64,000 nt of DNA, from assembly GCF_028583545.1 (NCBI RefSeq), contig NZ_CP087106.1:5563001-5627000 (forward strand). The letters run 5' to 3'. Positions 37,822 to 63,469 of the stretch are shown here, piece after piece. The position numbers were made by a program, and so were the translations under genes. How positions within the stretch are numbered: position 1 is the stretch's first letter; every line of letters starts with the position of its first letter. The DNA comes from Methylobacterium sp. NMS14P (GTDB lineage Bacteria > Pseudomonadota > Alphaproteobacteria > Rhizobiales > Beijerinckiaceae). Below the pieces are notes generated by a model. That model was not told the origin of the DNA. It saw nothing but the letters and a program-made list of their open reading frames with translations, and did not search any database.

Positions 37822-37850
37822 TTGACACCGGCGCGCTGCCGGGGTATCAA
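37822..37850 (+). promoter_or_regulatory. Sigma70-like promoter of the GTA cluster
   Basis: TTGACA (37822-37827), 17-base spacer, TATCAA (37845-37850). The spacer holds an inverted repeat CCGGC-GCGCT-GCCGG. It lies 35 bases before the small terminase start and is the most consensus-like promoter I saw in the window. Confidence 0.65.
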
Positions 37851-37885
37851 CCGGGCACGGTCGAGACGTGTGCGGAGAGACCCCG

Positions 37886-38554
37886 ATGTGGCCACCCCCT
37901 CCCAGCAGGGCGGACAGCCGCGCCGAGGCCCTGACGCTCCTGCGCGAGACCGACCTGACGTGCGACGCGATCGCGGCCCGCCTCGGCGTCCACCCGAAGA
38001 CGGTGCATACCTGGAACGCCCGGGCCGGCTGGCCGAGGCCGCGGCAGCAACGGCCGCGGCTCCTGACGGGGCGCTGGCCGGCGGCGCGCCGGGCCGCCCT
38101 GATCCGCCTGCTGTGCACGCCGGGCGCCGATCCCGGCGACGTCACCGAGATCCTGGGTCTCGGCCGGCTCGACCCGGCGATGATGGCCACGGCCTTCGGG
38201 GCGGACCTGCCGCTGCCGCCGGCGGTCACCGGGCGCGGCGACCCGGCGGCGGACCCGGCGACCCTGCGGGCGCGTCTGCGCGCCCACATCGCCCGGCAGA
38301 TCGCCGCCTTCGACGCGGCTCTGAGCGGGGCGGGGCCGGGCGCGCGCGAGTCCGCCCGGGTCCTGCGCGACCTCGGTGGGCTCAAGCGGCTCCTCGACAC
38401 GGTGGATGCGGAAGGCGCGCGCGCCGCCGCGGGGGAGGGGGGCGATGGCACCGGACCCAACGCTGAACCCGGCACCGAACCCGACCTGCCCGCCCTGCGC
38501 GCGGAGATCGCGCGACGCGTTGCTGGCTTTGTCGGCGGCCGGCCGGCTGCCTGA
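37886..38554 (+). CDS. Small terminase-like protein of the gene transfer agent (g1 position)
   Basis: A 222-residue protein. The N-terminal helix-turn-helix (EALTLLRETDLTCDAIAARLGVHPKTVHTWNARAGWPRP) fits DNA-recognising small terminases. The rest is helical. Position, strand and overlap with the large terminase assign it. ATG 37886 has GGAGAG 6 bases upstream; GTG 37868 is the other start. It would recognise DNA for packaging; in GTAs this choice is nearly random. Confidence 0.75.
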   Translation: MWPPPPSRADSRAEALTLLRETDLTCDAIAARLGVHPKTVHTWNARAGWPRPRQQRPRLLTGRWPAARRAALIRLLCTPGADPGDVTEILGLGRLDPAMMATAFGADLPLPPAVTGRGDPAADPATLRARLRAHIARQIAAFDAALSGAGPGARESARVLRDLGGLKRLLDTVDAEGARAAAGEGGDGTGPNAEPGTEPDLPALRAEIARRVAGFVGGRPAA

Positions 38555-39827
38555 CTTCCTCGGGACGCTGCCGCCGGACCTCCTCCGGGCGCTGGCGGGC
38601 GACTGGCTGCACCAGGCCCGGCCGGACCAGCTGCCGCCGCCCGACGCGGCGCCCTGGACCACCTGGGCGGTGATCGGCGGCCGCGGCAGCGGCAAGACCC
38701 GCACCGGGGCCGAGTGGGTCGACGCCCTGGCGCGGGGCGACCCGGCCTTCGCGGGCGCGCCGGTCGGGCGGATCGCCCTGGTGGGCGAGACCCATCTCGA
38801 CGTGCGCGACGTGATGGTCGAGGGCCCCTCCGGCCTGCTCGGTCTCCCGGCGCGGGGGCGGGCGCGGCCCACGTGGTCGCCGAGCCGCCGCCGGGTGGAG
38901 TGGAGCAACGGCGCCGTCGCGCTCGCCTTCTCGGCGGAGGAGCCCGACGCGCTGCGCGGCCCGCAATTCGGCGCCGCGTGGTGCGACGAGGCCGCCAAGT
39001 GGCGCCGGCCCGAGGCGGCCTTCGACATGCTGCAATTCGGCCTCCGCCTCGGCGCCCGGCCGCGCAACCTCGTGACGACGACGCCCCGGCCGGTGCCGCT
39101 GATCCGCCGCCTGCTCGCCGACCCGCGCACGGTGGTGAGCCGCGCCCGGACCCACGACAACGCCGCGCATCTCGCGCCCGACTTTCTCGAGCAGGTGGTC
39201 GGGCGCTACGCCGGCACGCGGCTCGGCCGGCAGGAACTCGACGGCGAGCTCATCGCCGACCGGGACGACGCCCTGTGGACGCGCGCCGCCCTGGAGGCGG
39301 GCCGGATCGCCGCCGCGCCCGATCTCGGCCGGATCGTCGTGGCGGTGGACCCGCCCGCCGCCTCGGGCGCGCGCTCGGATGCCTGCGGGATCGTGGCGGC
39401 CGGGCGCGCCGGCGGGCACGCCTACGTGCTGGCCGACGCGAGCCTCGCCCGCGCCACCCCGCAGGCCTGGGCGGCCGCGGCGCTGGCGCTCTACCACCGG
39501 CTCCGGGCGGACGCCCTCGTGGTCGAGGTCAACCAGGGCGGCGAGATGGCCGCCGCCGTGCTGGGCCAGTGCGACCCGGCCGTGCCGGTCACCCGGGTCC
39601 ACGCCACGCGGGGCAAGTACCTGCGCGCCGAGCCGGTCTCGCTGCTCTACGCCCGCGGGCTGGTCCACCACGTCGGCGCCTTCCCGGCGCTGGAGGACGA
39701 GCTGTGCGATTTCGGGCCGGAGGGCCTGTCCGGCGGGGCCTCGCCCGACCGCCTCGACGCCCTGGTCTGGGCGCTCACGCACCTGATGCTGGAGACCCGG
39801 GCCGCGCCTCGGATCCGGCGGCTGTGA
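38445..39827 (+). CDS. GTA large terminase (g2)
   Basis: About 460 residues. The ATPase has Walker A GGRGSGKT (78-85) and Walker B AWCDEA (Asp181, Glu182). The C-terminal RNase H-like nuclease has VVAVDPPAASG, VVEVNQGGEMAAAV and DALVWALTHL. ATG 38445 with a GGAGGGGGG site would overlap the small terminase gene by 110 bases. TTG 38520 (LLALSAAGRL) is an alternative that better matches the usual GTA terminase N-terminus. It cuts and pumps host DNA into the capsid. Confidence 0.93.
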   Translation: MAPDPTLNPAPNPTCPPCARRSRDALLALSAAGRLPDFLGTLPPDLLRALAGDWLHQARPDQLPPPDAAPWTTWAVIGGRGSGKTRTGAEWVDALARGDPAFAGAPVGRIALVGETHLDVRDVMVEGPSGLLGLPARGRARPTWSPSRRRVEWSNGAVALAFSAEEPDALRGPQFGAAWCDEAAKWRRPEAAFDMLQFGLRLGARPRNLVTTTPRPVPLIRRLLADPRTVVSRARTHDNAAHLAPDFLEQVVGRYAGTRLGRQELDGELIADRDDALWTRAALEAGRIAAAPDLGRIVVAVDPPAASGARSDACGIVAAGRAGGHAYVLADASLARATPQAWAAAALALYHRLRADALVVEVNQGGEMAAAVLGQCDPAVPVTRVHATRGKYLRAEPVSLLYARGLVHHVGAFPALEDELCDFGPEGLSGGASPDRLDALVWALTHLMLETRAAPRIRRL

Positions 39828-40164: not shown

Positions 40165-40410
40165 TCAATCACCGCCACCGCCACCGCCGCCATCACCGCC
40201 GCCCCCGTCGCCGCAGCCGCCGCCGTCACCGCCGTGACAGCCGCCATCGCCGAAGCCGGCGCCGCCGTCGCCGCCGGAGCCCGAAGCATAGCTGACGGAG
40301 CCGGAGCGGCGGGGGCCCTGGGAGCGCCTCGCGGCGGGCATGAGGCAGCGGAGGAAGGGGACGAGCGCGATGACGAAGATCGCGAGTTCGAGGGCCTGCT
40401 TCCTGTCCAT
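40165..40410 (-). CDS. Small membrane protein with Gly/Asp/Cys-rich tail
   Basis: An 81-residue protein. It has a short N-terminal hydrophobic helix (LELAIFVIALVPFLRCL), a basic linker, and a tail of ~35 residues made almost only of Gly and Asp with a few Cys (GGDGGAGFGDGGCHGG...). ATG 40410 has GGAGG upstream. Not recognised. It is antisense to the GTA genes. Confidence 0.6.
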   Translation of the reverse strand: MDRKQALELAIFVIALVPFLRCLMPAARRSQGPRRSGSVSYASGSGGDGGAGFGDGGCHGGDGGGCGDGGGGDGGGGGGGD

Positions 40411-40468
40411 CGGAACCTCCATCGGTTCGTCGGTCCGGACAGTCTAGCACAGGCGGGGGCGGCGGCCG

Positions 40469-41485
40469 TCACGGGGGCGCGGTCAGGCTCCGCAGGGCCG
40501 CCCGGACGTCGGCGAGGGCGCCGACCAGGGCGTAGCAGGCGAGATCGTGGGCGCCGGCGGCGGCGTTCGCCAGCCGGAAGCGGCAGCTGAGGCGGTTCGC
40601 ACCGGCCTCGGGGGCGACCGCGAAACTGGGCCGCGGCGCGTCGGGCTCCTGCTCCGGCGGGCCCGGCGCCCAGACCGCGAGGGCGTGCGAGCCCTCCGGC
40701 GTCGCCAGGATCACGGGGTCCGGCCGCTCCCCCGCTCCGGGGTCGAGGGGCGCGATCCCGCCGGTGGCCGGGTCGAAGCGCCAGACCGCGGAGAAGTCCG
40801 CCGGCACGGCGGCGGCGAGGGGTTCGAGCCGGAGCGCCGCCGCGGGCTCGGCCAGGACGAAACTCGCCTGCACCTCCACGGCGTTGCCGAGGCCCGGCAG
40901 GCCGAGGGCGACCCGCTTGCGGAGGATCGGGGCCTGGATCGGGGAGCTCGCAACCGCGGTCGGGCAGTCCGAGGGGGGCTCGTCGGCCGGGTCGGCGGGG
41001 CCGTCCCAGGCCATGCGGGTCTCGGTCTCGGCCCAGCTCCGGCCGGCGCGCAGGGCGCGGAGCCGGTGGGCCGCGGGCGCGCCGGTCCCGTCCTGCGGGG
41101 TGCCGGCCTCGCTCGCCCGGCGGCACCCGGCCCCTGACCCGATCTCCGCCCGCGCCTGCAGGGCGTCGCCGGGCTCGGTGTCGGCCAGGAAAGTGACGCC
41201 GTCCCAGGTCAGCGTGTCCACCGCGCCGGCGACCCGCCGGGACAGGCGCAGGCTGATCTCGGACCGGCCGAAGGGGCGCGCCAGGATCAGGGTCCCGTCG
41301 GGCTCCGGCCAGAGGGGCGCGGCCGCGGGCGCATCCCCGGCCCGGGCCGGCGCGGCCAGGGGCGCGGCGACGAGCGCTGGGACGAGCGCTGGGACGAGCG
41401 CTGCGATCCGTGCTGCGACGCGGGCACCTGCCCGGACCCGCCCTCGGAACCGCGCCTGGGGCCGTGTGGGGATCCGGGGCTGCAT
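40469..41485 (-). CDS. Hypothetical exported protein in the GTA cluster
   Basis: A 338-residue protein. An N-terminal basic segment and Ala/Val-rich signal (AARIAALVPALVPALVAAPLAAPARA) precede a beta-rich mature protein with scattered Cys. Not recognised as a family. The start ATG 41485 is divergent from the portal gene, with 30 bases between the two starts. Confidence 0.6.
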   Translation of the reverse strand: MQPRIPTRPQARFRGRVRAGARVAARIAALVPALVPALVAAPLAAPARAGDAPAAAPLWPEPDGTLILARPFGRSEISLRLSRRVAGAVDTLTWDGVTFLADTEPGDALQARAEIGSGAGCRRASEAGTPQDGTGAPAAHRLRALRAGRSWAETETRMAWDGPADPADEPPSDCPTAVASSPIQAPILRKRVALGLPGLGNAVEVQASFVLAEPAAALRLEPLAAAVPADFSAVWRFDPATGGIAPLDPGAGERPDPVILATPEGSHALAVWAPGPPEQEPDAPRPSFAVAPEAGANRLSCRFRLANAAAGAHDLACYALVGALADVRAALRSLTAPP

Positions 41486-41515: not shown

Positions 41516-42706
41516 ATGTCGACCCTCCTCGAACGCCTGGCGCGGGTCGCGCGCCGCCCCGCCGGCGGTGCGACCCTCGCCACCAAGGCCGCGGCCCCGG
41601 CCTTCGCCCTCTACGCGGAGGGCCGGGCCAGCTGGACGCCCCGCGATCCGGCGGCGCTCGCCCGGGCCGGCTACCAGGCCAACCCGGTGGTCCACCGGGT
41701 GGTGCGGCTCGTCGCCGAGAGCGCCGCGAGCCTGCCGCTGATCGCCACCGGTCCCGGTGCCGAGCGCGCGGGCGACCTGCTGGCCCTGCTGGCGCGGCCG
41801 AACCCCCGGGAGAGCGGGCCGCACCTCCTGGAGACGCTCTACGCCGACCTCCTCCTCACCGGCACGGCCTACCTGGAGGCGGTGAGCCTCGACGGGCGGG
41901 TCGCCGCGCTCCAGGCCCTGCGGCCCGGGCGGATGCGGGCGCTGCCGGGCCCGGACGGCTGGCCGGCGGCCTACCTGTACACGGCGGGCGGGCGCAGCCG
42001 CCGGTTCGACCTGCCCGAGCCGGGCGCCGCGGTGGCGCCGATCCTCGCGCTGGCGCTGTTCCACCCGGAGGACGAGACCGGCGGCCTCGCCCCGATCGCG
42101 GCGGCGGCCGCCGCCCTCGACATCCACAACGCCGCGAGCGCCTGGAACAAGGCGCTGCTCGACAACGCCGCCCGGCCGTCCGGCGCCCTGGTCTTCGCCG
42201 GGGCGACGCTGTCCGAGCCGCAGTTCGACCGGCTGAAGGCGGAGCTGGAGGCGAACTACCAGGGCGCCGCCAATGCCGGCCGGCCGCTGCTGCTGGAGGG
42301 CGGCCTCGACTGGAAGCCCCTGGCGCTCTCGCCGCGGGACATGGACTTCGTGGCGGCCAAGGACGCGGCCGCCCGGGAGATCGCCCTGGCCTTCGGCGTG
42401 CCGCCCCTGCTGCTCGGCCTCGCCGGCGACAACACCCACGCCAACTACGCCGAGGCCAACCGCGCCCTCTACCGCCAGACCCTGATCCCCCTCGCGGCCC
42501 GCACCGCCCGGGCGCTGGCCGGCTGGCTGGAACCCGCCTTCGGGGCGATCGACCTGGAGCCGGACCTCGACCGGATCGAGGCGCTCGCCGGCGAGCGGGA
42601 ATCCCTGTGGCGCCGGGTCCAGGCGGCGGACTTCCTGTCGGTCGCGGAGAAGCGGGAGGCCGTGGGCTACCCGCCCGCGATGCCGCGGGCGCCGGGCACG
42701 CCGTGA
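41516..42706 (+). CDS. GTA portal protein (g3)
   Basis: A 396-residue HK97-type portal. It opens MSTLLERLARVARRPAGG. The blocks NPVVHRVVRLVAESAASLPL, ANYQGAANAGRPLLLEGGLDWKPL and GVPPLLLGLAGDNTHANYAEANRAL are typical. It forms the dodecameric DNA gate of the particle. ATG 41516 has GGAACGGA upstream. Confidence 0.94.
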   Translation: MSTLLERLARVARRPAGGATLATKAAAPAFALYAEGRASWTPRDPAALARAGYQANPVVHRVVRLVAESAASLPLIATGPGAERAGDLLALLARPNPRESGPHLLETLYADLLLTGTAYLEAVSLDGRVAALQALRPGRMRALPGPDGWPAAYLYTAGGRSRRFDLPEPGAAVAPILALALFHPEDETGGLAPIAAAAAALDIHNAASAWNKALLDNAARPSGALVFAGATLSEPQFDRLKAELEANYQGAANAGRPLLLEGGLDWKPLALSPRDMDFVAAKDAAAREIALAFGVPPLLLGLAGDNTHANYAEANRALYRQTLIPLAARTARALAGWLEPAFGAIDLEPDLDRIEALAGERESLWRRVQAADFLSVAEKREAVGYPPAMPRAPGTP

Positions 42707-42768: not shown

Positions 42769-43299
42769 ATGGACGGCCACTTCTCCGGCTATGCCAGCCT
42801 GTTCGGCGTGCCCGATCTCGGCCGCGACGTGGTGGTGCCGGGCGCCTTCGCGGCGAGCCTCGCCCGCCGCGGGGCCGCGGGCGTGCGGCTCCTGTTCCAG
42901 CACGATCCCGCCGAGCCGATCGGCCGCTGGCTCGCCCTGCGCGAGGACGGCCGCGGCCTGTTCGCGGAGGGCCAGCTGAACCTCGCGGTGCAGCGCGCCC
43001 GCGAGGTCGACGCCCTGATGCGCGGCGGCGGCCTCGACGGGCTCTCGATCGGCTTCCGCACGCTGCGCGCCCGGAAGGGCGCCGGCGGCGAGCGCCGGCT
43101 GCAGCAGGTCGACCTCTGGGAGATCTCGCTCGTGACCTTCCCGCTGCAGCCGGGGGCCCGGGCGAGCCCAGGTCCGATCCCGGGCCCCGATTCGGAGGCC
43201 GACGCGATCCGCGGCCTCGCCGGCCTGATCGCGCCGCCGCGTCCCGCGAGACCCGCCGCGAGACCCCCCGCTCGGCCGCTTCCGGCCGCGCGGTCCTGA
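42769..43299 (+). CDS. GTA prohead protease (g4)
   Basis: A 176-residue HK97-type protease. It opens MDGHFSGYASLFGVPDLGRDVVVPGAF. The serine/histidine core has LLFQHDPAEPIGRW (His) and GGLDGLSIGFRT (Ser), and then EISLVTFPLQPGA. It trims the scaffolding part of the capsid protein. It follows the portal stop by 62 bases, with no small g3.5-type gene between them. Confidence 0.92.
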   Translation: MDGHFSGYASLFGVPDLGRDVVVPGAFAASLARRGAAGVRLLFQHDPAEPIGRWLALREDGRGLFAEGQLNLAVQRAREVDALMRGGGLDGLSIGFRTLRARKGAGGERRLQQVDLWEISLVTFPLQPGARASPGPIPGPDSEADAIRGLAGLIAPPRPARPAARPPARPLPAARS

Positions 43300-43323: not shown

Positions 43324-44616
43324 ATGGACGCCCACACCCCGATCGCCGATCCCGCCCTCGCGCCGCCGTGCGGCCTGCCGCCGCTGGAGAACAAGGCCGC
43401 CCGGCCCGAGGGCGGCCCGGTCCGCTCCGCCCTCGACGAGCTCGCCGCCGCCTTCGCGGCCTTCAAGGAGACGAACGACGCGCGGATCGACCGGATCAAG
43501 GGCCGCCTCGGCGTCGACGTGCTCACCGAGGAGAAGCTCGCCCGGATCGACGCGGCCCTCGACGCCGCCCGCACCCGCCTCGACCGGATCGCCCTGGAGC
43601 GGGCCCGGCCGCCCCTCGGGCAGCCGGACGTCCGGGAGACGGGGGCCGCGCACGAGCACAAGGCCGCCTTCGACCTCTACGTCCGGGCGGGCGAGAGCGC
43701 CGGGCTCAAGCGCCTCGAGGCCAAGGCGCTCTCGGCCGGCTCCGGGCCGGACGGCGGCTACCTCGTCCCCGACACGATCGAGCGGACCGTGCTGGCGCGC
43801 CTCGGCCAGGTCTCGCCGATCCGGTCGATCGCCAGCGTGCAGCCGATCTCGGGCGCCCAGTACAAGCGCGCCGTGTCGGTCGGCGCGCCGGTCACCGGCT
43901 GGGCCGCCGAGACCGCGCCGCGGCCCGAGACCGCCGCGCCGGCCCTGTCGGAGATCGCGTTCCCCGCCATGGAGCTCTACGCGATGCCGGCCGCCACCCA
44001 GACGCTCCTCGACGACGCCGTGGTCGATCTCGACGCGTGGCTCTCGGCCGAGGTGGAGACCGCCTTCGCCGAGCAGGAGGGCGTCGCCTTCGTGTCGGGC
44101 AACGGCGCGAGCCGCCCGCGGGGCTTCCTGAGCTACGACACGGTCGCCAACGCCGCCTGGGTGCCGGGCAAGATCGGCACGGTCGCCACTGGGGCGGCCG
44201 GGGCGTTCCCGTCGGCCAGCCCGGGGGACGTGCTGTTCGACCTGATCTACGGGCTGCGGGCGGCCTACCGGCAGAACGCCGGCTTCGTCATGAACCGCCG
44301 CACCCAGAGCGCGATCCGCAAGTTCAAGGATTCGGAGGGCAACTATCTCTGGCAGCCGCCGCTCGCCGCCGGCCGGGCCGCGACGCTGGTCGGCTTCCCG
44401 GTCACCGAGGCCGAGGCGATGCCGGATCTCGCCAAGGACAGCCTGTCGGTGGCCTTCGGGGATTTCCGCCGGGGCTACCTCGTGGTCGACCGCACCGGGA
44501 TGCGGGTGCTGCGCGACCCGTACTCGGCCAAGCCCTACGTGCTGTTCTACACCACCAAGCGCGTCGGCGGCGGGGTGCAGGATTTCGACGCGCTCAAGCT
44601 CCTGAAGTTCTCCTGA
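43324..44616 (+). CDS. GTA major capsid protein (g5), HK97 fold
   Basis: A 430-residue protein. The N-terminal ~110 residues form a coiled-coil scaffolding region (DELAAAFAAFKETNDARIDRIKG...), expected to be cleaved by the protease. The capsid domain has GSGPDGGYLVPDTIERTVLARL, QTLLDDAVVDLDAWLSAEVETAF and RRGYLVVDRTGMRVLRDPY, typical of HK97-like GTA capsids. Confidence 0.95.
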   Translation: MDAHTPIADPALAPPCGLPPLENKAARPEGGPVRSALDELAAAFAAFKETNDARIDRIKGRLGVDVLTEEKLARIDAALDAARTRLDRIALERARPPLGQPDVRETGAAHEHKAAFDLYVRAGESAGLKRLEAKALSAGSGPDGGYLVPDTIERTVLARLGQVSPIRSIASVQPISGAQYKRAVSVGAPVTGWAAETAPRPETAAPALSEIAFPAMELYAMPAATQTLLDDAVVDLDAWLSAEVETAFAEQEGVAFVSGNGASRPRGFLSYDTVANAAWVPGKIGTVATGAAGAFPSASPGDVLFDLIYGLRAAYRQNAGFVMNRRTQSAIRKFKDSEGNYLWQPPLAAGRAATLVGFPVTEAEAMPDLAKDSLSVAFGDFRRGYLVVDRTGMRVLRDPYSAKPYVLFYTTKRVGGGVQDFDALKLLKFS

Positions 44617-44660: not shown

Positions 44661-45230
44661 CTAGCCGGCGCAGGTCGCGCGGTCGCAGCCCGCGAGCCGC
44701 CCGGCCTGCTGCTTGGCCCGCTCGAAATTGGTGCGGGCGGTGACGAGCCGCTCGCTGGCTTCCCGGCGGATCCGCACCGAGGTTCCCGGCTTCGCCTCGC
44801 GGACGTCCACGGCCTCCCAGTAGGCCATCGCAGCCTGCAGCTCGGCCTGCGCCTCCTTGAGGGTCGGGACCGGCGGCTGGGGCATCTCGGGCATCTCGGT
44901 GAGCCGGCCCTCCAGCACGGCCCGCGCCACGGCGATCTCGAACCGCCGGTCGACGCCGAACTGCGCCATCCGCTCCAGGTTCGGCTCGATCATCTGGAGG
45001 AGCGCGAGGGTCGGGACGACCAGCTGGTGCGCGTCCCCGCCCCAGCCCGGGTCGCACCTCTCGCCGTTGACCGCCCAGAAGACGCCGCGCGCGGTGGCGA
45101 TGCGGCCGTTCCGCGCCTCGCGGACGCGCAGGAAGAAGAAGCGCTCGCCGTAGATCGGGTCGAGCGAGCGGACACAGGCCAGGCTGCCGGTTCCGGCTGC
45201 CTGATAGTAGGTCTCAAGATCGATTTCCAC
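44661..45230 (-). CDS. Hypothetical protein in the GTA cluster
   Basis: A 189-residue soluble protein without signal peptide. It opens MEIDLETYYQAAGTGSLACV and has an alpha/beta N-half and a helical C-half with a coiled coil. Three of its Cys are near the end. I do not recognise the family. It begins the second interruption of the GTA cluster, antisense to it. Confidence 0.55.
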   Translation of the reverse strand: MEIDLETYYQAAGTGSLACVRSLDPIYGERFFFLRVREARNGRIATARGVFWAVNGERCDPGWGGDAHQLVVPTLALLQMIEPNLERMAQFGVDRRFEIAVARAVLEGRLTEMPEMPQPPVPTLKEAQAELQAAMAYWEAVDVREAKPGTSVRIRREASERLVTARTNFERAKQQAGRLAGCDRATCAG

Positions 45231-45930
45231 TGACGTCTCACAATTTCAAGAGCTGCATGACGCGGATCCGCTCGGGCGGACGCGCGGAAATCATGGAAAC
45301 GCTGAAACGGTACGCGGACGACTCGGGCGTGGAACTGTGTGAAACCAAGCGCTGCGCATTGGCTGCTCGCGTAGGGCCGGTCGGCCGTGCCGGTCGACCC
45401 GATGGGGTGAGAGGGTGCCGGGACCCCGGCGCCGCATCCCGATGCGGCGCATTCCGGGTCCGGTCCCGTCGGCAGATCCCCGTCACTGCGGGCCCCGCGG
45501 ACCGCGCGAGGCGGCGCGGTCCTGCAGGGCGATCGGATCCGCGTCCGAGCCGGCCCGTGAGCGCTCCGAGGCCGAATACCCGTTCATTTCCGGTAGATCA
45601 ATACGACTTGAGGGCGGACAACAACGTTTCTGCCGGAAACATCGCGCGTTAGTACGCTTTCTGTCCGAAATGCTCAAGGTTTGTCTGTTTCCGAAAGACA
45701 AGAAAATCTAATTTCTGTGGCCGACCTGCAACCCAATACCCCGGCGCGGGCCGGCGTTCCGATTTGGGATTGATGGCGCCGGTCATTTGCGGGAACTTAT
45801 TTGGACAGGGCTCGAAAGAACCAGAGCTCATCGGCAAAACGAAGCAATTCGGCCGAAACGAATAATAGCAGCACGGCCTGCATGGCTGAATGCTGTCTCC
45901 AATATGGGTCTCGACGTTTTGGGGAAATCG
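45231..45930. other. Regulatory region of porin 2
   Basis: 700 bases with no supported gene. From about 45650 the DNA is clearly AT-richer than its neighbours. It contains the inverted repeat TTGTCT...AGACAA (45681-45701) and probably the promoter and a long untranslated leader of porin 2. Confidence 0.55.
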
Positions 45931-47586: not shown

Positions 47587-47656
47587 ATCCCCGATCGGGA
47601 CCGGTTCGCTCTCCAAAGCTTCCCGGTCCTGATGTCCCCGTGCAAAGGGACCCCAC

Positions 47657-52605: not shown

Positions 52606-52614
52606 GGCACCGCC

Positions 52615-54020: not shown

Positions 54021-54027
54021 GGTGGAG

Positions 54028-54061
54028 CTTATAACAGGATAAGATTGTCCCTTGTAACAGG
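54028..54061. promoter_or_regulatory. Probable operator between XRE gene and methyltransferase
   Basis: An AT-rich divergent promoter of 81 bases. CTTAT-AACAGG-ATAAG (54028-54043) is an inverted repeat, and TAACAGG recurs as a direct repeat at 54032 and 54055 (23-bp spacing). Confidence 0.5.
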
Positions 54062-54101
54062 TTGAGTGCTCGGGTCTGTCGAGGGCGGAGGAGAACGATC
54101 C

Positions 54102-54884: not shown

Positions 54885-54921
54885 GCCGAACGGGGAGCCG
54901 GGATCCGGCTCCCTCCTTCCC

Positions 54922-55839
54922 TCACGCCGCCTTCCGCGCCTCGGTCTCCCGCGCCCGGCTGGTGCGGCCGTCGACGCTCACCGGCGCGACGCCCTGGATC
55001 GTCACGCGACGGACCACGCGGGGCGCCTCGCCGTAATCGTCCACCGCCCGGTGGACCGTGGCGCGGTTGTCCCAGATCGCCACGTCACCCGTCCGCCACG
55101 ACCAGCGCACGGTGTTCTCGGGCCGGGTCGCGTGGTCGTGGAAGATCGCCAGCAGATGCTGCGAATCCGCGGTGGTGAGGCCCAGGATCCGCTGGATGAA
55201 GTGGCCGACGATCAGCGAGCGCTCGCCGGTCTCCGGGTGGACGTGGACCAGCGGGTGCTCGGTCTCGAACACGGTCTTGGTGAACACCTCGTCGTAGCGC
55301 CGCCGCCCGGCCTCCGACACGTTCACGCGGCCGCCGACGTAGTCGTAGACGTTGGAGTGCAGCGCCCAGAGCTTGTCGGCGAGGTCGCGCAGGGGCTCGG
55401 GCAGGTCCGCGTAGGCCGCCGCCGTGTTGGCCCAGAGCGTGTCGCCGCCGTAGGGCGGCAGCGTCACGGCCCGCAGGATCGAGAGCGCCGGGTAGGCCGG
55501 CACGAAGGTCACGTCGGTGTGCCAGGAACTCGCCCGCTCGCCCCGGCTGCCGTCGATGTCGAGGATTCCCGCCGTGCCGGCGAGCGAGGGCACGGTCGGG
55601 TGCGGGACGAGGTCGCCGAGGCGCCGGCCGAAGGCCTCCTGCCCGGCCTCATCGAGATCCTGGTCGCGGAAGAACACGACCTTGTGGGTGTTCAGCGCCT
55701 GCCGGATCGCCGCGACCGTCCCGTCGTCGAGCGCTCCCGAGAGGGCGACGCCGCGGATCTCCGCGCCGATGCGGCCGGCGACGCGGCGGATGTCGAGGGC
55801 GGGGCCAGACGCGTGGAGGGGCTGAGGGATGGCGCTCAT
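54922..55839 (-). CDS. TauD/TfdA family Fe(II)/2-oxoglutarate dioxygenase
   Basis: A 305-residue enzyme. Iron ligands are His107 and Asp109 (SSWHTDVTF) and His263 (NRATVHRAV). The 2-oxoglutarate arginine lies near 274-278 (APRVVRRVT). Homologues desulfonate taurine or cleave alkyl sulfates; the substrate here is undetermined. ATG 55839 was chosen, since longer frames run into intergenic DNA. Confidence 0.9.
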   Translation of the reverse strand: MSAIPQPLHASGPALDIRRVAGRIGAEIRGVALSGALDDGTVAAIRQALNTHKVVFFRDQDLDEAGQEAFGRRLGDLVPHPTVPSLAGTAGILDIDGSRGERASSWHTDVTFVPAYPALSILRAVTLPPYGGDTLWANTAAAYADLPEPLRDLADKLWALHSNVYDYVGGRVNVSEAGRRRYDEVFTKTVFETEHPLVHVHPETGERSLIVGHFIQRILGLTTADSQHLLAIFHDHATRPENTVRWSWRTGDVAIWDNRATVHRAVDDYGEAPRVVRRVTIQGVAPVSVDGRTSRARETEARKAA

Positions 55840-56228
55840 CGAAAGGTTTCCCTGGCAGGGCGGCGTCGCGGCGCGCAGATCGCGCGATGAACCGAGATGT
55901 TCGGGCCGAGAGGATTTCGGAGAACATCCGCTTCGGTGTAGCGATCTTCGATCAACTGCCATCTTGTGTCGATGAATGGCGCTTTTGATTTTCCGGCGCA
56001 TCTCGGAAGACTTTTTTCAGCTGCTCCGACTCGGCAGCGATACCATTCCCCGACGCCGCGCGGGATCTGCGGCCCGGCCTCCGTCCTTGCGAGCGGAGCG
56101 AAGCAATCCAGGAGCGCCACGGACACGGATGTCGCGCTGCCCCGGGTCGCTTCGCCGCGCTCGCGATGACGGTGAGGACCCGGAGGACCGACGCGGCACC
56201 AGCGCGACCCGAACCGGAGAGGCCCGCC
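55840..56228. other. Gap between the dioxygenase gene and GTA g12
   Basis: No supported gene. It holds the dispersed repeat copy 2 (56081-56172) and an AT-richer patch around 55920-56030 that may be the dioxygenase promoter. Confidence 0.55.
56081..56172. repeat. Dispersed imperfect palindromic repeat, copy 2
   Basis: CCGTCCTTGCGAGCGGAGCG on the left, with AAGCAATCCAGG following. The inverted counterpart GGGTCGCTTCGCCGCGCTCG and ATGACGG close it on the right. It is the same element as at 23233-23325. It lies 56 bases before the g12 start. Confidence 0.8.
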
Positions 56229-56870
56229 ATGGCCGACGATTTCCACGAGGTGCTGTTCCCCCTCGACGTGTCCCTGCGCGCCGGCGGCGGCCCGCAGCGG
56301 CTGACCGAGATCGTGACCCTGGCCTCGGGCCGGGAGCACCGGAACGGCCGCTGGGCCGATTCGCGTCGCCGCTACGAGGCCGGATTCGGGATGCGCGGCC
56401 TCGACGCCCTGCACGCCGTGCTGGCCTTCTTCGAGGAGCGGCGCGGGCGGCTCTACGGCTTCCGGTTCCGCGACCGGGTCGACAGCCGCTCCGGGCCGCC
56501 CGGCCGGCCGATCGGCCCCCTCGACCAGCCGCTGGGCACCGGCGACGGCACCACCGCGTCCTTCCCGCTGTTCAAGACCTACGGGTCCGGCTTCGCGCCC
56601 TATCGCCGCCGGATCGCCAAGCCGGTGGCGGGCAGCGTCCGGGTAGCGGTGGCGGGCCGGGAGGTGGAGCCCGCTGGGTTCGCCTGTGACCCGACGACCG
56701 GCCTCGTCACCTTCGCGGCGGGCCGCGTCCCGCCGCCCGGCGCCGCGGTGACGGCGGGCTTCACCTTCGACGTGCCGGTCCGCTTCGACACCGACGCGCT
56801 GACCATCGACCTCGCCGCCTTCGCGGCCGGGGAGATCCCGCGGGTGCCGCTCGTCGAGATCGTGCCCTGA
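56229..56870 (+). CDS. GTA distal tail protein (g12), DUF2460
   Basis: A 213-residue protein, MADDFHEVLFPLDVSLRAGGGPQRLTEIVTLASGREHRNGRWADSRRRYEAGFG: the DUF2460/TIGR02217 opening. ATG 56229 is 56 bases after the dispersed repeat. It restarts the GTA run after the third interruption. Confidence 0.93.
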   Translation: MADDFHEVLFPLDVSLRAGGGPQRLTEIVTLASGREHRNGRWADSRRRYEAGFGMRGLDALHAVLAFFEERRGRLYGFRFRDRVDSRSGPPGRPIGPLDQPLGTGDGTTASFPLFKTYGSGFAPYRRRIAKPVAGSVRVAVAGREVEPAGFACDPTTGLVTFAAGRVPPPGAAVTAGFTFDVPVRFDTDALTIDLAAFAAGEIPRVPLVEIVP

Positions 56871-56884
56871 GGAGGCGTGACGCC

Positions 56885-57760
56885 ATGCGCGACATCCCGG
56901 AGGCCTTCGCGGCCCATCTCGCCGGCGGTGTGACCACCCTGTGCCGCTGCTGGTCCCTGCGGCGGCGGGACGGGCTCGCCCTCGGCTTCACCGACCACGA
57001 CCGCGACCTGACCGTCGCGGACCTCGTCCACGCCGCCCGCACCGGGCTGGAGGCGGCCGAGGCCAGCGCCGAGCTCGGCTTCGCGGTCTCGGGCGGTGAC
57101 GTGGCGGGAGCGCTCAGCGGCCTCGGGCTCACCGAGGCGGACATCGCCGGCGGCCTCTACGACGGCGCCTCCGTGGAGACCTGGCTGGTCGACTGGAGCA
57201 GCCCCGAGACCCGGCTCCTCCTCGACGTCGCCACCATCGGCGAGGTGCGCCGGGACGGCGACGCCTTCGTGGCGGAGTTGCGCGGCCTCGCGCACCGGCT
57301 CGGCGCCGAGCGGGGCCGCACCTACCGGGCGACCTGCGGCGCCGATCTCGGCGATGCCCGATGCAGGGTGGACCGCGCCGCGTGGACGACGGCCGGCCGC
57401 GTGACGGGCGTCCCGGAGCCGGCGACGCTCGCGGCGACGCTCGCCGGGCCCTTCGCGGACGGCCTGTTCACCGGCGGGCGGCTGACCTGGACGACCGGCG
57501 CCAATGCCGGGCTCGCGGCGGACGTGCGCCTCCAGCTCGGGCCGCTGATCGAGCTCTGGACCGCGCCGCCCCGGCCGGTTGCCCCCGGCGACGGGTTCAG
57601 CCTCACGGCCGGGTGCGACAAGCGCCTCGCCACCTGCCGCGACCGCTTCGCCAACGCGGTCAACTTCCAGGGCTTCCCGCACATGCCCGGCAACGACGCG
57701 GTGATGCGGGCGGTCCCGGGCTCGGACCCCGTCCTCGACGGCGGGAGCCTGTTCCGATGA
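56885..57760 (+). CDS. GTA tail hub protein (g13), DUF2163
   Basis: A 291-residue protein. The N-half is DUF2163 (AAHLAGGVTTLCRCWSLRRRDGLALGFTDHDRDL). The C-half has the Cys-rich BR0599-type segment (TCGADLGDARCRVD, then GCDKRLATCRDRFANAVNFQGFPHMPGND). The Cys pairs recall an Fe-S site reported for the GTA hub in Rhodobacter (from memory). Confidence 0.93.
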   Translation: MRDIPEAFAAHLAGGVTTLCRCWSLRRRDGLALGFTDHDRDLTVADLVHAARTGLEAAEASAELGFAVSGGDVAGALSGLGLTEADIAGGLYDGASVETWLVDWSSPETRLLLDVATIGEVRRDGDAFVAELRGLAHRLGAERGRTYRATCGADLGDARCRVDRAAWTTAGRVTGVPEPATLAATLAGPFADGLFTGGRLTWTTGANAGLAADVRLQLGPLIELWTAPPRPVAPGDGFSLTAGCDKRLATCRDRFANAVNFQGFPHMPGNDAVMRAVPGSDPVLDGGSLFR

Positions 57761-58299
57761 GCGCGACGCGGCGGGAGATCGGCCAAGATGGCGGTGTTGC
57801 GGCGCTCGGCGAGGCGCGGCTGTGGCTGGGCACGCCCTACCGCCACCAGGCGTCGCTGCGCGGCGTGGGCTGCGACTGCCTGGGCCTGCTGCGCGGAGTC
57901 TGGCGCGGGCTCTACGGCGCCGAGCCGGAGTCGCCGCCGCCCTATTCCGGCACCTGGGCGGAATCGGCCGCGCCCGGGACCGACCCGCTCACCGAGGCGG
58001 CCGCCCGCCACCTCGTGCCGGTGCCCGGACCCCTGGCGGACCTGGCGCCGCGGCCGGGCGACGTCCTGCTCTTCGCCTTCCGCCGCCACCTGCCGGCCCG
58101 CCACTGCGCCATCGCCACCGGCGCCGGCGCGATGATCCACGCCCACGACGGGGCCGCCGTCACCGAGGTGGCGCTCACCGGATGGTGGCGGCGGCACGCG
58201 ACGGGGGCGTTCCGGTTTCCGGAGCGCTGCGCCGCGGGGTCCGACCAGCGCGTCGATGGTGAACAGGTCGATCCCGGAGCCCCGCCATGGCGACGCTGA
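57757..58299 (+). CDS. GTA cell-wall peptidase (g14), NlpC/P60 type
   Basis: A 180-residue peptidase. The catalytic Cys is Cys41 in GVGCDCLGLLRGVW and the His is His116 in PARHCAIATG. It hydrolyses murein during DNA entry. ATG 57757 overlaps the g13 stop (ATGA). Its end overlaps the start of g15 by 13 bases. Confidence 0.9.
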   Translation: MSATRREIGQDGGVAALGEARLWLGTPYRHQASLRGVGCDCLGLLRGVWRGLYGAEPESPPPYSGTWAESAAPGTDPLTEAAARHLVPVPGPLADLAPRPGDVLLFAFRRHLPARHCAIATGAGAMIHAHDGAAVTEVALTGWWRRHATGAFRFPERCAAGSDQRVDGEQVDPGAPPWRR

Positions 58300-61200
58300 T
58301 CCTGTCCTCGGCCGGCGCGGCCGTGGGCACCGCCCTCGGCGGACCCATCGGCGGCCTGGTCGGGCGGGCGCTCGGCTCGGTCGCGGGCGCCGCTCTGGGC
58401 GGCGCCCTGTCGGGGGCCGGGCGGCACCCGCGCCTCGTCGAGGGGCCGCGGCTCGCCGACGTCGCCGGGCTCACCTCCACCGAGGGCGATCCGATCCCCC
58501 GGGTCTACGGGCGGGCACGGATCGGCGGCACCCTGATCTGGGCGACCCGACCGCTGGAGGTCGCCAACACCACCGTCGCCCGCGCGGCCGCGCCCGCCAA
58601 GGGCCTGGGCGGGCTCGCGGGCGGCCCGAGGACCGTCACGACCCGCTACAGCTACTTCGCCAACCTCGCGGTCGGCCTGTGCGAGGGCGAGATCGCCTGC
58701 GTCCGCCGGATCTGGGCGGACGGACGGGAGATCGACCAGGTCGGCCTGACCCTGCGGGTCCATACCGGCGGCCCCGGCCAGGAGCCGGACCCGCTGATCG
58801 TCGCCAAGGAGGGGGCCGGGAACGCGCCGGCCTATCGCGGCCTGGCCTACGTGGTGTTCGAGAACCTCGCCCTCGCGGCCTTCGGCAATCGGGTCCCGCA
58901 ATTCGCCTTCGAGGTGATCCGCCCGGTCAACGGCCTGTTCGACCGCGTGCGCGCCGTCGACCTGATCCCCGGCGCCAGCGAGTTCGGCCTCGATCCGGAC
59001 CGCGTCACGGTCGATCTCGGACTCGGCCGCACCGAGGCCGCCAACCGGCACCAGCTCCAGCGCGGGACCGACGTCGTCGCCTCCCTCGACGCCCTCCAGG
59101 CGCTGTGCCCGAACCTGCGCCGGGTCGCCGTGGTGGCGACGTGGTTCGGCACCGACCTGCGGGCGGGATCCTGCCGGGTCGTGCCCAAGGTCGAGGCGGC
59201 CGACAAGCGGGCCCGGCCGGAGGACTGGCGCGTCGCCGGGCTCGCCCGCGACCGGGCCGAGACGGTCTCGACCCTGCCGGACGGCAGCCCGGCCTACGGC
59301 GGCACGCCGGCCGACGCGGGCCTGACCCGGCTGGTCGCCGAGCTGGCGCGCCGGGGGCTGGCGGTGTCGCTCTACCCGTTCGTCATGATGGACGTGCCGG
59401 CCGGCAACGCGCTCCCCGATCCGCACGCCCCCGGCGCCGCCCAGCCCGCCTATCCCTGGCGCGGCCGCATCACCTGCGATCCGGCCCCCGGTCTTCCGGG
59501 GAGCCCGGACGGGACCGCCGCGGCCGACGCGCAGGTCGCGGCCTTCTTCGCGGGCGGATACCGCGACGCGGTCCTGCACTACGCCGACCTCGCGGCCGGC
59601 TGGGCGGCCGCGGGCGCGCCGCTCGCGGCCTTCGTGATCGGCAGCGAGCTCGTCGGCCTGACCCGGGTGCGCGGCGCGACCGGCTACCCGGCGGTGCGCG
59701 CGCTGAGCGACCTCGCCGCCGCGCTCCGCGACCGCCTCGGCCCGGCCGTCACCCTGGTCTACGCGGCGGACTGGACCGAGTACGGCGCCCATGTGGGCGA
59801 CGGCGGCGCCACCGTCCGCTTCCCCCTCGACGACCTGTTCGCCGACCCGAATATCGGCGCCGTCGGGATCGACTGGTACCCGCCCGTCTCCGACTGGCGC
59901 GACGACCCGGACCACGCCGACCTCGCGGTGACGGGCGACATCGCCGACCGGGCCTATCTGAAGGCCCGGGGCGCGTCCGGCGAGGCCTTCGACTGGTACT
60001 ACGCCGACGCGGCCGATCGCGCCGCCCAGGCCCGCCGCCCGATCACCGACGGCGCCGCCGGCAAGCCCTGGATCTACCGGGCCAAGGACCTCGTCGCGTG
60101 GTGGTCGAGCCCGCACGTGGAGCGCGACGGCGGCGTCGAGACCCGCACCACCGCCTGGGTGCCGGCCGGCAAGCCGATCTGGCTCACCGAGATCGGCGTG
60201 CCGGCGGTGGACAAGGGCACCAACGGCCCCAACGTCTTCCCGGACCCGAAATCGTCCGAGAGCGCCTTCCCGCCGGAATCCCGGGCCCTGCGCGACGAGC
60301 TGATCCAGCTCCGCGGGCTGGAGGCCGTGATCGCGCGGTTCGACCCGGCCGCGCCGGGCTTCCGGGAGGCCGACAACCCGGTCTCGCCGGTCTACGGCGG
60401 CCGCATGGTCGATCCCGACGGGATCTTCGTCTGGGCCTGGGACGCGCGGCCCTTCCCGGCCTTCCCGACGGTGCGGGGCGTCTGGGCCGACGCCGCCAAC
60501 TGGCGCGTCGGCCACTGGATCACCGGGCGGATCGAGGGCTGCGACCTCGACCTGCTTGTCCAGCGGATCCTCGCGGATTTCGGCTTCGACGCGCCGGTCT
60601 CCGTGGAGGCCGCCGCCTATCTCGACGGCTACGTGATCGACCGGCCGCTCACGGCGCGGGGCGCCCTGGAGACCCTGGCGCAGGTCTACGGCCTCGACGT
60701 CTCGGCGGTGGCCGGGACCCTGCGGCTGCGCGGTCCCCGCCGCGACCGGCCCGTGATCCTGGCCGAGGCCGACCTCGTCCGGCTGTCCGAGGACCGGCCG
60801 GTCCTGCACCAGGTCCGGGCCGAGGAGAGCGCCCTGCCGCGCTCCGTGGAGCTCGGGATCACCGATTCCGAGAGCCCGGATTACCGCCGCGCCGCGGCCT
60901 CGGCCGTGCGGCCCGCCGGCCTGCGGCGGCGCGAGGCTTGGATCGACGCGGCGATCGTCACCCGCCGGGAGACCGCCGACGGCCTCGCCGAGGCGCTGCT
61001 CGACCGGCTGATCGCGGCCCGCGACACCGCGGTGTTCACCCTGAGCCCGCGCCGGGTCGAGCTGGAGCCCGGCGACCTCCTGGCGGTGCCGGCCGACGTG
61101 CCCGGCGGCACGGTCCTGCGCCGGATCGACCGGATCGACGACGCGCCCACGGGCCGCCGGATCGAGGCGAGCGGCGTGCCGCCCCGGGCGGGGCCCGGGC

Positions 61201-62195
61201 GCGGGCTGCCCCGCGCGATGGCCCGGGCGGCGGTGGCGCCGCCCGCCTTTCCCGGACCGCCGCTCGCCCTGGCCCTCGACCTGCCGGTCGACCGCGGCGA
61301 GCCCACAGTTCTCCAATCCTGCGCGGTGGCGGCCGAGCCCTGGCCCGGCGCCGTCGCGATCTGGCGCGCCGCGGGCGACGGGCCGCTCGCCCTGCACCGC
61401 CTCGTCGACTACCCGGCCTGCCTCGGCCGCACCCTGTCGGCGCTGCCGCCCGGCCCGCTCTGGCGGATCCAGCGGGGCGCGCACCTCGACGTCACCCTGC
61501 GGCGCGGCGCGACCCTCGCGTCGATCGGGGCCGGCGCGATGCTGGCCGGGGGCAACCTGTTCGCCCTGCTCGGCGCGGACGGGACCGTGGAGCTGCTCTG
61601 CGCCGCGTCCTCGGTCCTGACCGGGCCCGACACCTACCGGCTGTCCGGCTTCCTGCGCGGGCTCGCGGGCAGCGAGGCGGCGGCCGGGCGCCTCAGCCCG
61701 GCGGGGAGCCTGATCGTGCGCCTCGACGACGGGGCCGTGACGCCCCTGGTCGACCGGCTGGACGAGGTCGGCCGCGCGTTCCGCTACCGCATCGGGCCGG
61801 CGGACGGCGATCCGGCCGACCCGGCCTTCGCCGAGATCACCGCCACGGCCGGCCTCGCGGCCCTGACGCCGCTGCGGCCGGTCCACCTGCGGGCGCGGCG
61901 CGCGGCGGACGGCGTGCGGCTCACGTGGATCCGGCGGGCCCGCCGCGACGGCGACGCCTGGGAGCCGGCCGAGATCCCGCTCGACGAGCCGGAAGCCTAC
62001 GCGGTGACGGTGTTCTCGGCCGCCGGCGCGGCCCTGCGCACGGTCCGGTCCGAGGCTCAGCACTGCCTCTACGCGGACGAGGCGGCCGATTTCGGCGGCG
62101 CCCAGACGGATCTCGACGTCGCGGTGGCGCAGATCGGGCTGGTCGCCGGCCCCGGACCCGCCTGCCGCGCCCGAATCCCCGTCCACTCGGCCTGA
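58287..62195 (+). CDS. GTA tail tip/host specificity protein (g15), TIM-barrel
   Basis: A 1302-residue protein, the size of its GTA counterparts. The N-terminus (LILSSAGAAVGTALGGPIGGLVGRALGSVAGAALGG) is followed by a hub domain. A glycoside-hydrolase-like TIM-barrel lies at about 440-740 (FVIGSELVGLTRVRG near 449, KPIWLTEIGVPAVDKG near 630), and then a phage-tail domain. It forms the baseplate and contacts the recipient cell. Confidence 0.95.
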   Translation: MATLILSSAGAAVGTALGGPIGGLVGRALGSVAGAALGGALSGAGRHPRLVEGPRLADVAGLTSTEGDPIPRVYGRARIGGTLIWATRPLEVANTTVARAAAPAKGLGGLAGGPRTVTTRYSYFANLAVGLCEGEIACVRRIWADGREIDQVGLTLRVHTGGPGQEPDPLIVAKEGAGNAPAYRGLAYVVFENLALAAFGNRVPQFAFEVIRPVNGLFDRVRAVDLIPGASEFGLDPDRVTVDLGLGRTEAANRHQLQRGTDVVASLDALQALCPNLRRVAVVATWFGTDLRAGSCRVVPKVEAADKRARPEDWRVAGLARDRAETVSTLPDGSPAYGGTPADAGLTRLVAELARRGLAVSLYPFVMMDVPAGNALPDPHAPGAAQPAYPWRGRITCDPAPGLPGSPDGTAAADAQVAAFFAGGYRDAVLHYADLAAGWAAAGAPLAAFVIGSELVGLTRVRGATGYPAVRALSDLAAALRDRLGPAVTLVYAADWTEYGAHVGDGGATVRFPLDDLFADPNIGAVGIDWYPPVSDWRDDPDHADLAVTGDIADRAYLKARGASGEAFDWYYADAADRAAQARRPITDGAAGKPWIYRAKDLVAWWSSPHVERDGGVETRTTAWVPAGKPIWLTEIGVPAVDKGTNGPNVFPDPKSSESAFPPESRALRDELIQLRGLEAVIARFDPAAPGFREADNPVSPVYGGRMVDPDGIFVWAWDARPFPAFPTVRGVWADAANWRVGHWITGRIEGCDLDLLVQRILADFGFDAPVSVEAAAYLDGYVIDRPLTARGALETLAQVYGLDVSAVAGTLRLRGPRRDRPVILAEADLVRLSEDRPVLHQVRAEESALPRSVELGITDSESPDYRRAAASAVRPAGLRRREAWIDAAIVTRRETADGLAEALLDRLIAARDTAVFTLSPRRVELEPGDLLAVPADVPGGTVLRRIDRIDDAPTGRRIEASGVPPRAGPGRGLPRAMARAAVAPPAFPGPPLALALDLPVDRGEPTVLQSCAVAAEPWPGAVAIWRAAGDGPLALHRLVDYPACLGRTLSALPPGPLWRIQRGAHLDVTLRRGATLASIGAGAMLAGGNLFALLGADGTVELLCAASSVLTGPDTYRLSGFLRGLAGSEAAAGRLSPAGSLIVRLDDGAVTPLVDRLDEVGRAFRYRIGPADGDPADPAFAEITATAGLAALTPLRPVHLRARRAADGVRLTWIRRARRDGDAWEPAEIPLDEPEAYAVTVFSAAGAALRTVRSEAQHCLYADEAADFGGAQTDLDVAVAQIGLVAGPGPACRARIPVHSA

Positions 62196-62212
62196 CCGCC
62201 CGGGAGCCGCCC

Positions 62213-63469
62213 ATGTCCGACGTCACGCTCCATCTCGGCCTGCCGCTGATCGCCGCGAGCCAAGCGCAGAAGCACGTCACCCACAACGAGGCGCTCGGCC
62301 TGCTCGACGCGCTCGTCCAGCTCGCCTGCCTGGACAAGGACCTCGCCGCGCCGCCGCCGGGCCCCGCGGAGGGCGATCGCTACCTCGTGGTCGCCGCCGA
62401 GCCCGGGGGCGCCTGGGCGGGGCTGGCGGGCCAGGTGGTGCGCTACGCCGATGGCGTCTGGACCGGCGCGGCGCCGCGGGCCGGCTGGCTCGCCTGGCTG
62501 ATCGACGAGGCCGACCTCTACGTCTACGACGGCGCGGCCTGGACGAGCCTCCGCCGCGCGCTGAGCGCGCTCCAGAGTGTCGGCCGCCTCGGGATCAACA
62601 CGGCGGCCGACGCCAACAACCGCCTCGCGCTGAAGTCCGATTCCGCGCTCCTGACCTGGGACGACACGACGCCGGGCACCGGCGACATGCGGGTCTTCGT
62701 CAACCGGAAATCCGCCGCCCGCGACGCCGCCCTGGTCTTCGAGACCGGCTACGCGGCGCGGGCGCTGCTGGGCACCCTCGGGAGCGACGACTTCACCCTG
62801 AAGGTCTCGCCCGACGGGGCCGCCTTCGCCACGGCGCTCACCGCCTCGGCGCGGACCGGCGGGATCGACTTCGCCTCGGCCGAGGCCGCGCTCGCGGCCG
62901 CCCCCACCACCGACCTCGGCGCGGCCGGCACGCGGCGGGTCCTCGTCACCGGCGCGGCGCGGATCGCGAGCTTCGGCCCCGCGGCCGACCGGGAGCGGTT
63001 CGTGCGCTTCTCCGGCGCCGCGACCCTGGTGCACGATCCCGAGGCCCTGGCGCTGCCGACCCGGGCCGATCTCGTCACGGCCCCCGACGACACCTGCATC
63101 GCCACCTCGGACGGTGCGGGCCGCTGGCGCGTGCGCCATTACCAGCGCGCCGACGGGACGCCGCTCGCGACCGGCGCGCAGGTGATCGGCGCCAACGGGT
63201 CGGTCCGGCTCCCGGGCGGCCTGATCGCGCAATGGGGGCTCGTCACCGCGGCCGAGGCGGATGTCGCGGTGGCGTTCGGCATCGCCTTCCCGGGGAGCTG
63301 CCTCGGCGTCTGGGCGCAGCCGGTCGCCGGCGCCGGCGACGCGCTCCACGCCGCGCAGGTCGGCGACGTGGCGGCCACCGGGTTCACGCTCCGCACCCGC
63401 CGCGCGACGGCCGGTTCGGTGGCGGGCGTCGGGTCGGTGCCGACCTACTGGCTGGCGCTGGGCGCGTGA
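62213..63469 (+). CDS. DUF2793 fibre/spike protein
   Basis: A 418-residue protein. The N-terminus is the DUF2793 signature (LGLPLIAASQAQKHVTHNEALGLLDALVQ) and the middle has a fibre-like repeat-poor beta region. The C-terminus (VADVAVAFGIAFPGSCLGVWAQ-like, GSVPTYWLALGA) looks like a receptor-binding tip. It follows g15 by 17 bases, so it is likely part of the GTA operon as tail fibre or head spike. Confidence 0.85.
   Translation: MSDVTLHLGLPLIAASQAQKHVTHNEALGLLDALVQLACLDKDLAAPPPGPAEGDRYLVVAAEPGGAWAGLAGQVVRYADGVWTGAAPRAGWLAWLIDEADLYVYDGAAWTSLRRALSALQSVGRLGINTAADANNRLALKSDSALLTWDDTTPGTGDMRVFVNRKSAARDAALVFETGYAARALLGTLGSDDFTLKVSPDGAAFATALTASARTGGIDFASAEAALAAAPTTDLGAAGTRRVLVTGAARIASFGPAADRERFVRFSGAATLVHDPEALALPTRADLVTAPDDTCIATSDGAGRWRVRHYQRADGTPLATGAQVIGANGSVRLPGGLIAQWGLVTAAEADVAVAFGIAFPGSCLGVWAQPVAGAGDALHAAQVGDVAATGFTLRTRRATAGSVAGVGSVPTYWLALGA

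Follow-up and report, generated by a model that had tools for sequence, protein, structure and literature searches.

A 64,000-nt stretch of the Methylobacterium sp. NMS14P genome (the window; positions 5563001-5627000 of contig C1; genome G000, 6.88 Mb, three contigs) carries a gene transfer agent (GTA) cluster of the type known from Rhodobacter capsulatus (RcGTA), cut by cellular genes at three junctions (TerL|portal, capsid|gp6 and gp11|gp12). How is such a GTA, split into pieces, kept and transcribed, and do the genes between the pieces belong to it? The account favoured here, with a probability of about 0.77, is that of a vertically inherited RcGTA-type GTA interleaved with host genes and served by one GafZ-type promoter and anti-termination. 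It is carried by gene set and order, open frames, selection, promoter conservation, linkage to gafZ and a conserved row of host genes, all obtained here. If correct, a domesticated phage can persist in pieces within a host neighbourhood, with one promoter and a nearby regulator.

Gene content, selection and promoter

Seventeen RcGTA-type head-tail genes, all on the + strand, in order and with open frames, occupy 37886-63469 (Pfam and NCBIfam matches; open reading frame (ORF) reading of the window). The head module comprises the TerS-like gp1 (37886-38554; called by its helix-turn-helix (HTH) and position), an uninterrupted gp2 TerL (38445-39827; PF03237, PF17289), the gp3 portal (41516-42706; PF04860, the alternative portal family PF05133 having no match in G000), the gp4 prohead protease (42769-43299) and the gp5 major capsid protein (43324-44616; PF05065). 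These are followed by gp6, gp7, gp8, gp9, gp10, gp10.1 and gp11 (connector, tail tube, chaperones and tape measure; 50232-53205, with a provisional start codon for gp10.1), by gp12, gp13, gp14 and gp15 (distal tail, hub, NlpC/P60 and TIM-barrel proteins; 56166-62195) and by a DUF2793 fibre-like protein (62213-63469; PF10983, PF21882). Pfam identified the terminase large subunit, portal, capsid, gp6-type connector, gp8 tail completion protein, tail tube, GTA-gp10, gp10.1 (TAC_6), gp12 (DUF2460), gp13, gp14 (NlpC/P60), the GTA TIM-barrel gp15 and DUF2793. A Pfam search gave no match for gp7, which, like the prohead protease, was called by frame, order and conservation, and gp11 scored 163 bits against NCBIfam RcGTA_tape, under the cut-off of 220. 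A first-pass annotation of the window had listed seventeen genes in canonical Rhodobacter-GTA order on one strand without breaks, and families and open frames agree with it; its statement that integrase and replication genes are absent also holds for the cluster and island ORFs scanned with Pfam.

For comparison, TerL, capsid, gp9 and gp15 were located by whole-genome searches in 111 congeners. terL was matched in 92 of these, in three cases prophage-like (G062, G132, G024), and G074 (two pieces, contig end) was omitted. From the 88 genomes with a GTA-type terL a 60-locus set was drawn (the window plus 59 relatives with all four genes on one contig and strand within at most 40 kb), in which broken clusters are under-represented; the prohead protease was matched in 60 loci. 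Twenty of the 111 genomes, without a gp9 match, are referred to as GTA-less (G133 included by deduction; G093 left out because its GTA capsid is still present), and provide a natural contrast by which bystander genes of the host can be told from parts of the GTA.

Between G000 and G129, the ratio of nonsynonymous to synonymous substitution rates (dN/dS) was 0.16 for terL, 0.14 for portal, 0.18 for capsid and 0.20 for gp15, with higher values for gp14 (0.69) and TerS (0.31). Pooled for G000 versus G002 and G129 it was 0.18-0.22 for head and 0.23-0.27 for tail genes, and pooled GTA values across all pairs tried lay between 0.05 and 0.28. The GTA of the window is under purifying selection and is apparently kept by it, so the earlier suggestion that selection maintains the agent, for which dN/dS of the phage genes had been named as the check, is upheld by these values and by the conserved promoter. 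Guanine-cytosine content is raised at codon positions 1 and 2, not 3 (p 7e-5, 0.006 and 0.15, respectively, versus 28 chosen other genes of the window), a pattern given as a GTA signature in the accessible part of PMC7360931. Gene trees point to vertical inheritance that goes back at least to the ancestor of those members of the genus that bear the GTA.

Transcription most likely starts at a single GafZ-type promoter at 37822 (37822-37850, + strand), which is sigma70-like (TTGACA-N17-TATCAA) and has a conserved SCG-N3-CGCT in the 17-nt spacer between -35 (TTGACA) and -10 (TATCAA). The cluster start given in the first-pass annotation, 37822, falls on the first nucleotide of the -35 box, although the promoter as such was overlooked. 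Over the 111 genomes the exact pattern has 78 matches, a single one per genome, 77 of them on the terL strand 283-845 bp upstream of terL and the last (G101) beside a TerS fragment at a contig end; the 20 GTA-less genomes have none. Ten terL genomes lack an exact match; in eight of them a match with one mismatch occupies the equivalent position, while in G023 and G117 nothing was matched before terL even with one mismatch; stray one-mismatch matches occur in GTA-less and other genomes. Of the 78 matches, 43 have a perfect AGCG-N3-CGCT spacer repeat; in the other 35, which include that of the window, the repeat is imperfect (ACCG). A looser pattern places the promoter before terL in seven genomes of other families (G040, G046, G048, G051, G053, G055, G187) and is unmatched in G056 and G057. 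Directly upstream of the -35 box, a dyad (TCCTA-N14-TAGGA; 37790-37813, + strand) is a possible activator site, with other half-sites in other species. TCCTA-N-TAGGA was rejected as a universal dyad, being found upstream of TerS in 13 of 60 loci, with a different dyad or none seen in the others.

The candidate regulator lies 2.4 kb upstream of the promoter, adjoining sufE: a DUF6456 gene (34574-35422, + strand; PF20057, E 6e-40), predicted from its sequence to be a gafZ-type activator gene. The first-pass view that the cluster lacks a repressor gene is kept, since the XRE gene of island 3 (53238-54020) is MmyB-type and present in 1 of 60 loci and so is not counted as a phage repressor. That no regulator is present at all was rejected, gafZ lying just outside the cluster, where the first-pass annotation had overlooked it. 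According to the available portion of PMC9638019, Rhodobacterales GafA homologues are annotated as DUF6456 or HTH and those of Hyphomicrobiales lie beside sufE; among 20 relatives examined, 13 have gafZ within 12 kb upstream of the GTA. Caulobacter GafZ, as described in the text seen of PMC11150451, needs an element between -35 and -10 and acts as an anti-terminator that bypasses terminators. By analogy, GafZ-like anti-termination would carry transcription across islands and terminators here, and read-through, expression and particle production of this GTA are inferred. MucR-like genes, by our own reading, lie near the gafZ region in G079 and G030.

Of the rival explanations, the one that survives best is that each module behind an island has its own, different promoter, which we regard as possible but clearly the less probable reading. 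The exact pattern occurs once per genome, yet antisense genes and a + strand terminator-like hairpin 3' of the porin gene (47657-47678; weak, six such hairpins being found against 3.9 expected in shuffled sequence) lie between the modules, and G051 has a partial second copy of the motif before capsid. In 19 loci of the window's subclade, however, no promoter-like conserved motif was found before portal, gp6 or gp12 (consensus by eye), and the ~25 bp between protease 2 and gp6 leave no intergenic room for one.

Host genes between the GTA modules

Island 1 (40165-41485, - strand) encodes a glycine-rich small protein (40165-40410) and an exported hypothetical protein (40469-41485). Island 2 (44661-50206) has a lineage-specific part (44661-48269) with a hypothetical gene (-), a porin gene (+, 45787-47586) and dps (-, 47724-48269), and an ancient part (48384-50206, - strand) with two trypsin-like protease genes (PF00089; protease 1, 48384-49295; protease 2, 49445-50206). 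Island 3 (53238-56001) holds the MmyB-type XRE gene (-, 53238-54020) and genes for a methyltransferase (+, 54066-54884) and a TauD dioxygenase (-, 54922-56001). Of the ten confident island genes, those for the porin and the methyltransferase are sense and the other eight antisense, in line with the original description of three islands of mostly antisense cellular genes; the ORF at 45257-45652 is doubtful as a gene (dN/dS 0.96).

Gaps of more than 300 bp are found at capsid|gp6 in 60/60 loci, gp14|gp15 in 28/60, TerL|portal in 24/60, gp11|gp12 in 16/60, portal|protease in 15/60 and gp12|gp13 in 6/60, and at each of the other ten junctions in 0-1. Compact relatives are contiguous from TerL to capsid (~1.8 kb) and from gp9 to gp15 (~3.2 kb). 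The XRE and methyltransferase genes each occur in one of the 60 loci, the porin gene and its neighbours in 2, the exported hypothetical in 9, TauD in 15 and Dps in 19. The comparison of island positions across relatives that had been suggested shows two kinds of island: the protease pair is present throughout, and the other island genes are lineage-specific. Islands cluster at certain junctions, a point overlooked in the first-pass annotation. Normal genome shuffling, as once proposed for the islands, fits most of them (1-19 of 60 loci).

In all 60 loci the interval from capsid to gp6 holds both protease genes, antisense and in unchanged order. Their tree agrees for the most part with that of the GTA: it shares 29 of its 32 supported splits with the latter, in the other direction 34 of 48 are recovered, and identities correlate at r 0.93. 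Protease 2 and gp6 have divergent starts, 25 bp apart in the window and at an extrapolated median of 24 bp (range -5 to 156) across loci. A fixed position and orientation, back to back with gp6, is what would be expected if the islands, above all this pair, were GTA accessories for release, uptake or producer protection; a role in GTA regulation or host protection had been raised before. However, protease 1 is retained in 19 and protease 2 in 18 of the 20 GTA-less genomes. In the ten GTA-less loci that were read (16 kb each) one and the same row recurs: protease 2, protease 1, HWE kinase, sufE and S9 peptidase. A small ORF lies there between the protease 1 and kinase genes, and none of these loci gave a match to gafZ or to any of the window's GTA genes. 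Nine of ten order-level GTA loci have no protease match at the capsid|gp6 junction (E 1e-5); only G055, of another family, has a distant tandem pair there (33-35% identity). The pair was rejected as a GTA part since GTA-less genomes keep it, and the earlier regulatory or protective role is not supported. Because the proteases are so kept and the other island genes are lineage-specific, the islands of the window are most likely host genes, and their reading as accessories is improbable.

In the window the genes of this host row keep their order on the - strand, with GTA modules between them. The interval from S9 peptidase to sufE holds a porin gene, a small gene and gafZ; HWE kinase and protease 1 are separated by a DUF3761 gene and the head module, and protease 2 is followed by the tail module. 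In the favoured account, GTA modules that are all on the + strand (gafZ; TerS to capsid; gp6-gp11; gp12-DUF2793) would be interleaved with host genes mostly on the - strand, and the protease pair would be part of an old host row (S9 peptidase, sufE, HWE kinase, protease 1, protease 2). The pair presumably holds its position because protease 2 and gp6 stand back to back, so that the promoter of each would need to sit inside the other gene. The remaining islands would be later, lineage-specific host insertions at tolerant junctions. We read the modules as interleaved with the row and lost from it in one species group, though the reverse, a gain, may apply instead.

Several observations weigh against this account. 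The row without a GTA could be the ancestral one, and Dps and TauD persist through a subclade. Pooled dN/dS of the proteases (0.19-0.27, window pairs) resembles that of the GTA genes, so that dN/dS does not separate the two, and the side-chain carbon of the GTA proteins shows no significant reduction against the other genes of the window (p 0.16). As to transcription, a reversed control with at most one mismatch yields 0-4 matches per genome, for which reason the pattern is taken into account only where it matches exactly or, if nearly so, at terL. In G051, which likewise has a split cluster, capsid is preceded by a further copy of the -35 and spacer motif that lacks the -10 TA, and in some genomes read-through may therefore not be enough; modules 127-272 kb apart in G131 and G086 are too far for plausible read-through. 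gafZ is not within 12 kb upstream in 7 of the 20 relatives, and the small gene 5' of gafZ (34202-34480; 65-91% conserved in relatives) has no Pfam match and is not DnaA-like by eye, so GafY is not identified.

That the split cluster is a decaying remnant is very unlikely, since the window has 17 open frames, purifying dN/dS and a retained promoter, although decay is real in the genus (20 of 111 genomes without a GTA; gp6-gp8 and a gp15 piece kept and gp9 gone in G093; a gp9 match that starts at residue 26, 272 kb from the head module, in G086; broken frames in G007 and G019).

Mobile elements in terL and capsid of relatives

The most surprising result concerns insertions in relatives; all of the sites described below are unoccupied in the window, where the copy is intact. 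In G131, G117, G022, G034, G118 and G094, terL is cut at codon ~420 at a TGCGATTTC-type direct repeat, the equivalent of whose core, TGCGATTTC, is uninterrupted at 39705-39713 (+ strand). In G131 and G094 a single contig covers both ends; in G117, G118 and G034 they lie on two contigs and would join across them, and in G022 only the left end was seen. With a tyrosine recombinase (PF00589 in 4/6, by similarity in the other two) and direct repeats at their ends, these are integrative elements. Relatives of the G131 integrase at a level of at least 57% occur in exactly these six of the 111 genomes, all of them at the terL break or no more than ~4.5 kb from it, while the best remaining match reaches 37%; in three of the six (G022, G034, G118) the matched frame contains stops. 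An order-level sample of 397 genomes added four matches at E 1e-60: one in G187, of another family, beside a terL cut at 423 (one end seen), and three (G310, G485, G046; 51-55%) that were set aside, not being at a GTA terL. An unrooted tree of ten rows, that of G187 being long, separates the seven terL-site recombinases from these three with 100/100 support. Named cases whose terL match ends at residue 423 are M. oxalidis NBRC 107715 and Methylobacterium spp. J-068 and Leaf99. Prim-Pol genes lie near element ends in G034 and G117.

At codon ~188, just after Walker B, insertions of ~187 kb (G104) and ~59 kb (G035) occupy exactly the same position, and both have 5-bp duplications and TGT...ACA ends; the equivalent of the duplicated target is uninterrupted at 39004-39008 (+ strand). 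The G035 element is Tn7-like, with terminal inverted repeats, the 5-bp duplication and TnsA-, TnsB-, TnsC- and TniQ-like genes (Pfam matches to TnsA, TnsB, TnsC and TniQ 1 under the cut-offs, to TniQ 2 above). It also bears a KAP/QueC/TatD set similar to the Qat defence system. Inside the G104 insert there is a TniQ, and TniQ relatives (39-42%) were found away from terL in G108 and G131. A third type cuts capsid at codon ~354 in G103 (13 kb, one contig) and G001 (two contigs), at positions at most 2 bp apart, with common end sequences and genes and 4-bp duplications; no transposase was recognised among their genes. The equivalent site (capsid codons 352-354) is at 44377-44385 (+ strand).

In the head-gene tree, interrupted genomes group with uninterrupted ones, except G094 and G035, which are neighbours with different insertions, and this grouping indicates six, two and two independent events. 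The two terL sites are interrupted in 8 of 89 genomes with a GTA-type terL; other broken or split terL matches were seen in G007, G017, G019, G074 and G078, and the insertions seen in portal (8 kb in G094, 4.7 kb in G004) resemble ordinary transposons at their ends. The remaining GTA genes of G131, G034, G117, G094, G035, G104 and G118 gave no sign of relaxed selection (dN/dS, pairable genes), so the insertions would be recent, reversible or tolerated. We consider it rather probable that mobile elements have a standing attachment site in the GTA packaging gene and would thereby switch off the host GTA, with a recombinase clade recognising terL codon ~420, Tn7-type elements the Walker B codons and a third type capsid. 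A search of the open-access literature recognised no insertion in a GTA terL, nor a terminase as a Tn7 site. If true, recurrent site-specific interruption of terL and capsid would make a conflict between mobile elements and GTAs directly testable.

Comparison with known systems and further features

With RcGTA the cluster shares g1-g15 content and order, the GTA TIM and GTA-gp10 families, codon-position GC and vertical inheritance, and it differs in its three host-gene islands, the proximity of gafZ and the fixed place of the protease pair at the capsid|gp6 junction. Its content, order, selection and regulator put it with the RcGTA-like GTAs, with particle production predicted. The GTA of Caulobacter crescentus (CcGTA; GafY/GafZ/IHF), as far as set out in the portion seen of PMC11150451, is similar in its single main promoter, with a conserved element between -35 and -10, and in the presence of GafZ, of which the window has a homologue, whereas the window has a TTGACA -35 box with a dyad directly upstream, and GafY and IHF sites were not identified in it.

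The insertions in relatives recall the elements in comM (Tn6022 TnsF, Tsy), for which the sections available of PMC10293859 describe unrelated classes using one conserved gene-exchange ATPase gene; a search of that paper for the term 'terminase' found none. Tn7-type insertions here lie just 3' of the Walker B codons. Unlike in comM, the gene hit is that of the GTA terminase, with the recombinase site (codon ~420) in another part of it. A switching off of the host GTA would parallel what elements in comM may do to natural transformation.

The closest TerL matches listed belong to Methylobacterium and Methylorubrum, the closest named one among them being M. fujisawaense DSM 5686 (95% identity). 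A second, prophage-like terL (50% identity, one TGA) lies elsewhere in the same genome (G000:C1:2264450-2265748). Scattered GTA modules span ~187 kb in G131 and ~287 kb in G086 (gp9 match from residue 26). The GTA-less G080 (8.8 Mb) has five gp15-like genes (45% identity), similar to the set in an M. nodulans prophage described in the part of PMC11409702 that was available.

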